This document shows, one piece after another, positions 47,659 through 50,497 of a stretch of DNA of 64,000 nucleotides. Below the pieces are notes generated by a model. The model was not told the DNA's origin, ran no database searches, and was given only the letters and a program-made list of their open reading frames with translations. The DNA lies in NCBI RefSeq assembly GCF_018409545.1, contig NZ_AP024563.1, positions 124,001-188,000 on the forward strand, in the 5' to 3' direction. Numbering within the stretch: position 1 is the stretch's first letter; every line of letters starts with the position of its first letter. The DNA is from Allochromatium tepidum (GTDB taxonomy: Bacteria > Pseudomonadota > Gammaproteobacteria > Chromatiales > Chromatiaceae). Position numbers and translations under genes: made by a program.

Positions 47659-48258
47659 ATGTCAGTCAGCCTCGAAACTCTCGCCGCCGGTCTGGCCGAT
47701 GGCGATCTGGTCCCTTATCTGGGACCGGGCGCTCTAGCCGGCGCGGTCGATCCGCAGACCGGCGAACCGATCCCGGCCGACGGCGACAGCCTCATCCTGG
47801 CCATGAACAATGGTCAGCCGGTGTCGCCGCGGCTGATGTGGGATTTCTCACGCGCGGCCATGAACGTCGAACTCAAGCGCGGTCGCGGTGCGATCCACCG
47901 TTTTCTGAACACCACCTATGCCGAGCGGACCTGGACGCGCTCGCCGCTGCACGGCCGGCTCGCGCACATCCAATACATCACCGAGCTGATGGGCGGATTC
48001 GCCATTCCGAGCTTCGTCAAGACACTCCGTACCGGCAAGCAGTACGTCTGTCTCGGACTGCGCTTCCTGCGCGACACCGAGCGCATGGTCTTCTCGGACA
48101 TGACCTATGGCTCCGGTGCTCCAACCGGCTGGGCGCTGATCCCGGAACCGACGGACAAGGAGCGTCGTTTCTGCGACAAACGCGGGATCGAGATCCTACA
48201 GGCCGACATCTCGGACCTGCTCGCGGTATCCTCGACGCCGGAACCCACGGCGGCCTAG
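47659..48258 (+). CDS. Unknown 199-aa protein, SIR2-like N-terminus, possibly internally deleted
   Basis: Residues 1-90 open LAAGLADGDLVPYLGPGALA, resembling the nucleotide-loop start of SIR2-like proteins, then SLILAMNNGQPVSPRLMWDF and a RFLNTTYAERTWTRSPLHG segment. Residues 97-199 continue YITELMGGFAIPSFVKT and end with a RRFCDKRGIEILQADISDLL module. From memory, close relatives near nif genes in other proteobacteria are roughly 290 aa, with about 90 residues between these halves; if so, this is an in-frame deletion. That comparison needs checking. No function is assigned. Confidence 0.6.
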   Translation: MSVSLETLAAGLADGDLVPYLGPGALAGAVDPQTGEPIPADGDSLILAMNNGQPVSPRLMWDFSRAAMNVELKRGRGAIHRFLNTTYAERTWTRSPLHGRLAHIQYITELMGGFAIPSFVKTLRTGKQYVCLGLRFLRDTERMVFSDMTYGSGAPTGWALIPEPTDKERRFCDKRGIEILQADISDLLAVSSTPEPTAA

Positions 48259-48293: not shown

Positions 48294-49400
48294 CTGAACC
48301 CCGTCATCGAACTGGTGCGCGGCCTGGCCGCCTGGATGGTCTTCACGGCCCATGCCGCCCATCTGCTCACGCCCGATCCGGCCTTTTTGAAATTCCTCTG
48401 GACCGGAGTCGATCTGTTCTTCGTGATCAGCGGCTTCGTGTTCGCCCCGCTGCTGCTGTCGGGCGGCTTTGCGATCCGGCCCTATGCGATCAGGCGCGTC
48501 TTCCGTCTCTATCCGCTCTATCTGGTCTCGCTGCCGCTGTATTACCTGATCGCGCCCGAGTCGCCCGACAAGCTACTCTATCTGCTCAGACATCTGGTCT
48601 TTCTCGGCACCACCAGCGGCGCGCACGAAGCCTTCTTCTTCAATCCGGCCTATTGGAGTCTGCCGGTCGAGGTCGAATACTATCTGCTGCTGCCGCTGCT
48701 GGCGCTGATCGTCGCGGGCCGGTTGCGGGTGGTGCCGGCGCTGTTCGGAATCTTTTGTGTCGTGCGGTTCGGGATCGTGCTGGGAGCCACGCCCTTCGCG
48801 AGTCCGGATCCGAACCGGCTGTCGATCCTGCGGGTCCATCTGCCCGGCATCCTGATCGAGTTCCTGGTGGGAGTCTTCGTCTATGTCGCGCACCAGCGCT
48901 GGCGTGATTCGGGACAGCGCCTGTGGCCGATGCTCGCCGGTGCAGGCGGGTTGGCGCTCTGGCTGAGCCTGGGACTCTTCTTTGCGCGTCACGGCGATCC
49001 GGGGATCGGCGCTCATCTGTGGCTGAAGTCCTATTTCAGCCTGCTGTGTGCCATCGGCTATGGGCTGATGCTGTTCGGGCTACTGGGTCTGCTGGGCGGT
49101 CTGGACGGACGCGCTCGACAGTCGGCCTTCTTCCTGGGCAACCTGAGCTATGGCGTCTATCTGTTCCATATCCTGGTGCTGCGGCTCTACGAGCGGTCGG
49201 ATCTGGCGTTGCCGGGCGCCCTGGCCTTCATTGCCTGCGGGCTCGCGGTGCTGGTGCTGGCCCTGCTGGGCTATCACCTGATCGAGCATCCGGCGCGCAC
49301 CTTCGGTCGTCGCCTGGCATCGCATCGCGAGCCGACGCAAGCCCCTATCCTCTCGCGGGAGAGGGGTTGGGGAGAGGGGGAGCTCAAGCGACATGGCTGA
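48294..49400 (+). CDS. Acyltransferase 3 family membrane protein
   Basis: About 368 aa with some ten helices. VIELVRGLAAWMVFTAHAAH carries the conserved His, FLKFLWTGVDLFFVISGFVF follows, and YWSLPVEVEYYLLLPLL is typical of OafB/ExoZ-like O-acyltransferases acting on polysaccharides. No ATG is available. A CTG at 48294 lies 5 nt after GAGGAG, an excellent ribosome-binding site; a GTG at 48315 is the alternative. The last 20 codons are read from a palindromic repeat, so the natural C-terminus may have been replaced. Confidence 0.82.
   Translation: MNPVIELVRGLAAWMVFTAHAAHLLTPDPAFLKFLWTGVDLFFVISGFVFAPLLLSGGFAIRPYAIRRVFRLYPLYLVSLPLYYLIAPESPDKLLYLLRHLVFLGTTSGAHEAFFFNPAYWSLPVEVEYYLLLPLLALIVAGRLRVVPALFGIFCVVRFGIVLGATPFASPDPNRLSILRVHLPGILIEFLVGVFVYVAHQRWRDSGQRLWPMLAGAGGLALWLSLGLFFARHGDPGIGAHLWLKSYFSLLCAIGYGLMLFGLLGLLGGLDGRARQSAFFLGNLSYGVYLFHILVLRLYERSDLALPGALAFIACGLAVLVLALLGYHLIEHPARTFGRRLASHREPTQAPILSRERGWGEGELKRHG
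49343..49380. repeat. REP-like palindrome at the 3' end of the acyltransferase gene
   Basis: CCCCTATCCTCTC-gcg-GGAGAGGGGTTGGGGAGAGG forms a hairpin with inexact GA/CT-rich arms, a common intergenic element in high-GC Proteobacteria. It is translated here as the end of the acyltransferase. Confidence 0.55.
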
Positions 49401-49401
49401 T

Positions 49402-50295
49402 TCATCGCTGAGACCTGCTCAATAGATCCAGCGCCTGCCGGCGACAGAGACGGGCCGTTTCCCGATCCAGGGCTTTGAGCCGGCGTTGAGGAATGGCGTC
49501 GAATCCGTACAGGGCACCGGCGATCATGCCGAGGATGGCGCCCGTGGTATCGGCATCGCCACCGCGATTGACCACATCGATCAGGGCCGACTCGAAGCCA
49601 TCCGTGCCGAACAGCGCCTGGAAGACTGCCCGCAGGGTCTCGACGATATAGCCGCCGGGATCGTCCTGACGGCGCTCGCCGTCGAAGGCGAAGCGGGAGT
49701 CCGCCTCGACCAGTTCCGCGGCGAGTCGACGCAGATCTTCGAGCGATCCGCCGAGCAGGGCGGTCTGAGTCATCCGGATGACGGTGAGGGTGCCGAGGTC
49801 GGACAGGCTATTGTGGTGGGTGACATGGGCCTGCAGCCGATAGTCGACACAGACCCCACAGGATGGCGCACGGCAGACATAGATGCCCTCCGACTCGCAC
49901 AGTTGCTTGTAGAGGAAGCGTTTCCACTTCATGTCCTGGACGTTGCGCACGGCCAGCTCGGGGAAGTTGCGCCGCATCAGCTCGGTCAGCTCGGCGCGGT
50001 TCCAGAGTCCGAGATCGTGCCAGAGATGATCGTCGGCCAGGCAGCCGCTGGCGACCACGCGCGCCATCCAGGTCTCGGACGGCGAGCGCCCGGCGCGATG
50101 GGTCAGCAGCAGTTCGATCAGTTCCTCGCGCTCTTCCAGGCGGTTGCCCAGGAGCGGACTCGCGCCATCGCAGGAACCGAGCACGTCCGGCGAGACGCCG
50201 GGGAAATGATGCGCCATGAGGCGCTTGAAGTCGGCCTGATCCAGCCCGAGCCAGGCGGGCAGGGCGCCGCCGCCGGCCGCGCGCGTGGCGATCAT
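49402..50295 (-). CDS. Chimeric NifQ-DraG protein (in-frame fusion across a deletion)
   Basis: 297 aa. Residues 1-152 are NifQ, the molybdenum-donating FeMo-co protein: SGCLADDHLWHDLGL, RRNFPELAVRNVQDMKWKRF, QLCESEGIYVCRAPSCGVC. The cluster cysteines C141, C146 and C149 are there, but the fourth, expected near 155, is not. From about 154 the sequence is the C-terminal half of DraG (ADP-ribosyl-dinitrogenase-reductase hydrolase): HVTHHNSLSDLGTL, YIVETLRAVFQALFGTD, VVNRGGDADTTGA (245-253). The DraG N-terminal metal site is absent. The NifQ frame also runs on upstream of the ATG (GDGNDRAFAG), so its natural N-terminus is lost too. Neither half should be functional. Confidence 0.85.
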   Translation of the reverse strand: MIATRAAGGGALPAWLGLDQADFKRLMAHHFPGVSPDVLGSCDGASPLLGNRLEEREELIELLLTHRAGRSPSETWMARVVASGCLADDHLWHDLGLWNRAELTELMRRNFPELAVRNVQDMKWKRFLYKQLCESEGIYVCRAPSCGVCVDYRLQAHVTHHNSLSDLGTLTVIRMTQTALLGGSLEDLRRLAAELVEADSRFAFDGERRQDDPGGYIVETLRAVFQALFGTDGFESALIDVVNRGGDADTTGAILGMIAGALYGFDAIPQRRLKALDRETARLCRRQALDLLSRSQR

Positions 50296-50311
50296 GCCGG
50301 CGAAGGCGCGA

Positions 50312-50497
50312 TCATTGCCGTCCCCGGCTCGCGAGCGCGGAGGCGAAGAGACTCTTGCCTTCTCCCGGCTGGGCGCTCGTGATCAGAACGGCCGCCGGCG
50401 TCCGGTGTTGCAAGGCATGATCGATCGCACAGGAAATACGCTTGATTTCGGCGATCTGGCCGAGTGCTTGCCGTTGTCTATCCTCGAGATTGCTCAT
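50312..50497 (-). pseudogene. Fragment of a CpsD/BY-kinase-type ATPase gene
   Basis: A 61-aa ORF starting MSNLEDRQRQALGQ whose second half, AAVLITSAQPGEGKSLFASA, is the Walker A region of bacterial tyrosine autokinases or MinD-like ATPases of exopolysaccharide systems. It stops right where NifQ-like coding begins in another frame. Walker A', Walker B and the Tyr cluster are missing. It may still be translated as a short peptide. Confidence 0.6.

Follow-up and report, generated by a model that had tools for sequence, protein, structure and literature searches.

A 490-bp deletion has very probably joined nifQ to the C-terminal half of draG in nitrogenase-less Allochromatium tepidum

NifQ is the molybdenum donor for FeMo-co, and in the relatives compared here its cysteines form a C-x4-C-x2-C-x5-C pattern, in which they serve as ligands. 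DraG has two metal-site motifs, TDDTEMS in its N-terminal half and GGDADTTG in its C-terminal half. NifQ is described as carrying a [Mo-Fe3-S4] group (PMC11605450), and A. vinosum is presented as a nitrogen fixer that possesses both DraT (Alvin_1882) and DraG (Alvin_3044) (PMC3368242). In the window under study, a 64,000-nucleotide stretch of the A. tepidum genome (contig NZ_AP024563.1, positions 124,001 to 188,000), pieces of NifQ and DraG are read as a single chimeric protein. No report of a NifQ-DraG fusion was found in the literature searched, which misses most subscription journals. Besides NifQ and DraG themselves, this locus resembles fusion pseudogenes created when neighbours are joined by deletion during the loss of a pathway: here too neighbours have been joined, the pathway is absent and other genes of the pathway are scarred, and nothing essential differs, the frame of the chimera happening to stay open across the join.

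The chimeric frame (49402..50295, minus strand, read from 50295 to 49402) begins with an ATG and comprises 297 codons with no internal stop. Residues 1-152 (49840..50295) are NifQ by profile, with the Pfam model PF04891 matching residues 1-153 at 187 bits over positions 5-155 of 159, while residues 153-297 (49402..49839, including the stop codon) correspond to the C-terminal half of DraG (TIGR02662; PDB 3G9D, 2WOC) with its GGDADTTG motif, as evidenced by the Pfam ADP_ribosyl_GH match to residues 153-271 (82 bits) and by alignment of residues 153-295 to positions 146-286 of 287 in TIGR02662, albeit at 159 bits vs. the 337-bit cut-off of this NCBIfam DraG model. An earlier note, made from the letters alone and naming no strand, had read the frame as NifQ up to C-x4-C-x2-C followed by the DraG C-terminal half, and the profile matches place both parts accordingly. 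As the two parts are 97% (NifQ) and 90% (DraG half) identical in amino acids to the adjoining intact genes of A. humboldtianum, the similarity is not due to chance.

In contrast to NifQ proper, the chimera lacks the fourth cysteine, the C-terminal end and the native start, and its genome is devoid of NifB, NifH and NifDK. Three of the four cysteines are retained (C141-x4-C146-x2-C149), but the last, positioned six residues past C149 in relatives (CVDYANC, CVDYAYC), is gone, with the chimera reading CVDYRLQ. The DraG part starts within NRLQAHVTHH, and whatever precedes NRLQAH in DraG, including TDDTEMS, is missing, so that the loss of the fourth NifQ cysteine and of the DraG N-terminal metal site, both stated in the earlier note, is borne out. 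In alignment to PDB 3G9D, an intact relative covers residues 16-306 while the chimera aligns only from its residue 155 onward; in addition, DraT and NifH are absent from the genome. Judged by the features tested, the chimera would therefore stand outside both functional NifQ and functional DraG, and because the fourth cysteine and half of DraG are missing, we consider either activity improbable.

The intact state is found in three congeners, namely genome G103, which we take to be A. vinosum DSM 180, A. humboldtianum DSM 21881 (G124) and A. palmeri DSM 15591 (G140), in each of which nifQ and draG are separate and adjoining genes. In A. vinosum (L035), a P-loop ATPase gene, an ORF with no Pfam match, nifB, three ferredoxin-like genes (one 4Fe-4S ferredoxin-like, with Pfam matches just below cut-off, and two 2Fe-2S ferredoxins), nifQ and draG follow one another on one strand. 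In the A. tepidum DNA, the junction falls at 49839..49840, where nifQ, ending in GTCGACTAT (GTC GAC TAT), passes into draG at CGGCTGCAGGCC (CGG CTG CAG GCC). Exactly 490 bp are missing at this point vs. A. vinosum and A. humboldtianum, as measured between flanking anchors; the same 490 bp are missing vs. A. palmeri as judged by the distance between two motifs, no flanking anchor having been found there. Since nifQ and draG lie in different frames in these relatives and 490 is of the form 3n+1, the loss puts both in one frame. The two ends share at most 2 bp (AT), which points to a joining event that did not involve a repeat. These data agree with the earlier proposal of a single deletion between two nif-related genes.

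A second gap borders the chimeric frame on its 5' side (50329..50334, ending at about 50333; blastn, anchors), with 4194 bp missing vs. A. vinosum and 4249 bp vs. A. humboldtianum. This gap removes the ATPase gene beyond GEGKS, the ORF with no Pfam match, nifB, the three ferredoxin-like genes and the start of nifQ. What remains of the ATPase gene, the intact relative of which matches ParA/AAA_31, is a stub cut just past GEGKS (50312..50497, minus strand), with its stop positioned 16 nt ahead of the ATG of the chimera in another frame. Based on the A. vinosum reading, the chimera lacks the 34 residues of the native NifQ start, of which about 22 were deleted and about 12 are left, unread, upstream of the first usable start codon (50296..50333, minus strand, where the blastn match to congeners reaches 50333). 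As the sequence contains neither an in-frame ATG, GTG or TTG farther upstream nor a purine-rich stretch directly ahead of the ATG, the chimera would probably be translated poorly. Whether the 4.2-kb gap also took away a sigma-54-like promoter was considered and set aside, as there is one site with a single mismatch upstream of A. vinosum nifB vs. 0.37 expected by chance.

Recognizing that the earlier note left a choice between a strain losing nitrogen fixation and one with other copies of these genes, the genome-wide search it proposed (nifHDK, intact nifQ, draTG) was run on the assembly of two contigs (3,384,614 bases, rated 100% complete) and found none of them. PufM, PufL and PufC of this genome show no difference, over 324, 277 and 405 aligned residues, from chains of PDB 7VRJ, the structure deposited for the A. 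tepidum LH1-RC (PMC9133646), while they deviate at several positions from the next-best chains (8WDU, A. vinosum); by these proteins, the genome is that of A. tepidum or cannot be told apart from it. Neither nifH, nifB, nifA nor draT is present in the A. tepidum genome above family cut-offs, while six of eight genomes of the genus have all four, the exceptions being A. tepidum and the metagenome-assembled genome (MAG) G146. The PF00148 search likewise yielded no nifDK, its six matches comprising two pairs near matches presumed from their position to be BchL and BchX, and two pieces of one nifE, a remnant named by eye that is 97% identical to its A. vinosum counterpart. The genome harbors no second NifQ, nor any DraG above the family cut-off; the sole other DraG match, on contig 2 (L033, G000:C2:35025-35933), scored 148 bits vs. 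the 337 required and was rejected as a second working copy, being a full-length general ADP-ribosylglycohydrolase with similar partial matches in congeners. Given these absences, the loss branch of the earlier alternative holds and the branch of other copies falls away. Only lower-identity or short matches to the main nif cluster of A. vinosum (L056, 1325 to 17743) are left in A. tepidum, and the flanks of this cluster persist at C1 2239790-2243096 and 2312671-2314428, so the cluster site has been rearranged as well. Beside one old flank (L154 2273-4076) lie two frames, one of which by eye resembles an IS607-type recombinase and the other the OrfB/TnpB protein that accompanies it. As for MAG G146 (91% complete), it carries nifB in pieces with stops alongside a full-length draG frame (L175, G146:C31:1-8000), with no match to nifH, draT or NifQ, and this member of the genus seems to be losing nif independently.

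Taken together, we consider it highly probable that a 490-bp deletion, in a lineage devoid of nitrogenase, joined nifQ to the back half of draG, and that the product is a remnant predicted to be non-functional; by mechanism, it is a deletion-made fusion pseudogene.

Other leftover nif genes bear comparable scars. In a remnant elsewhere on contig 1 (L153 8451-10561, G000:C1:2923950-2926060, minus strand), comparison with congeners revealed that nifE has an internal loss of 138 bp (46 codons) between copies of a 9-bp repeat, that nifN has lost 1018 bp and is frameshifted, and that nifX is fused in frame to a ferredoxin gene, itself with a further internal loss between copies of an 11-bp repeat; the total loss at this locus amounts to 1312 bp (about 1159 + 153). 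NifX::ferredoxin is another chimeric frame and shares its origin with NifQ::DraG. Within the window, a SIR2-like gene converging on draG (47659..48258, plus strand) lacks an internal stretch of 255 bp that the three congeners have, with its frame maintained and 199 residues left vs. 284 in A. humboldtianum; its Pfam SIR2_2 match (E 0.056) is below cut-off. Between this gene and draG lies an acyltransferase gene (48300..49400, plus strand; PF01757, 108 bits), a region that aligns in A. humboldtianum (L034) but has no blastn match in the stretches of A. vinosum, A. palmeri and G026 (L035, L036, L037). Five of the seven scars mapped preserve or create long frames (the fusions NifQ::DraG and NifX::ferredoxin, and the internal losses in the SIR2-like gene, in NifE and in the ferredoxin; binomial P 0.045). 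On this ground one might postulate that nif decay keeps frames open, and that the decaying genes, NifQ::DraG included, are turning into fused or shortened products which the cell continues to make and retain. With removal of the two scars between short repeats within coding sequence, P rises to 0.21, and we strongly doubt this reading.

We then weighed whether the chimera by itself might be a kept and working protein, with the NifQ part serving a different pathway by binding or handing on molybdenum or an iron-sulfur cluster, and the DraG half acting as a folding or binding tail. The open frame of 297 codons, the retention of three of four cysteines and a low dN/dS would favor such a role. For nifQ, dN/dS is 0.10-0.20 in pairs with A. 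tepidum vs. 0.11-0.16 among the three intact congeners, and for the draG half 0.15-0.23 vs. 0.13-0.22, ranges that leave aside the more distant L037. Values this near to those of intact congeners fit a recent event, being no proof of decay, and we surmise that they mostly reflect the time before fusion. As to conserved residues, a DraG tryptophan constant in 79 of 79 relatives is an arginine in the chimera, while among the residues left all others with a conservation of at least 95% are unaltered, those of the NifQ part included; several of 81 control loci display as many or more departures at strongly conserved residues. Taken by itself, the sequence thus speaks for a recent event and would be compatible with a young relic as well as with a kept protein. 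It is the missing partners (NifB, NifH, NifDK) and key residues that lead us to the relic, with the fourth cysteine, the native start and the DraG N-terminal half gone and other nif genes of the same genome scarred, and we deem a working chimera very unlikely.

An assembly error merging two intact genes would be conceivable insofar as the finding rests on one assembly, but the genome is in two contigs and rated complete, independent gaps occur at three places and nif genes are consistently missing, making such an error extremely improbable.

The remaining question is whether the fusion exists elsewhere. A contig scan gave 97 stretches encoding a relative, and among the best 80 of these, nifQ followed by draG on the same strand, unfused, was found in 63 loci (463-794 nt from the last aligned NifQ residue to the DraG C-terminal half) and draG alone in the DNA examined in the other 17, with no fused copy in any of the 80. 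Matches at E up to 1e-10 occur in 70 of the 146 family genomes; among those listed, none on the NifQ side extends past residue 167 except in the chimera's own genome, and the full-length architecture is absent from the other genomes of this set. In the protein search (7998 candidates scored, 2781 found), the 119 other matches listed cover at most 56% of the chimera. Homologues with the same full-length architecture, named beforehand in the earlier note as evidence that would count against it, were sought in family genomes, loci and listed proteins, and none was encountered. A family of natural fusions, whether passed down or taken up in fused form, is hardly credible: having nifQ and draG as neighbours in most loci would make fusion easy, but neither these genomes and loci nor the listed proteins hold a fused copy and the closest congeners have both genes whole. 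At one of the loci surveyed, from a Chromatiaceae MAG (L075), the draG C-terminal half, 794 nt away from nifQ, deviates at 9 strongly conserved sites; this is possibly another decaying draG.

Returning to the deletion-made fusion pseudogene, we postulate the following course of events. Nitrogenase would have been lost first, freeing the remaining nif genes of constraint; the leftover nif genes would then have eroded by deletions in the A. tepidum lineage, if the gaps are read as deletions in that order, and one such deletion would have left a frame in which nifQ runs on into draG. If produced at all, the chimeric protein could probably hold neither the Mo-Fe-S cluster of NifQ nor the two-metal site of DraG.

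Beyond this, the locus represents ordinary gene decay, and its interest is twofold. A NifQ or DraG match in the A. tepidum genome is no sign of nitrogen fixation, a caution for annotation. In addition, a member of a nitrogen-fixing genus has been caught soon after the loss of the trait, and because the intact state is present in close relatives, the order and manner of this loss could be reconstructed.
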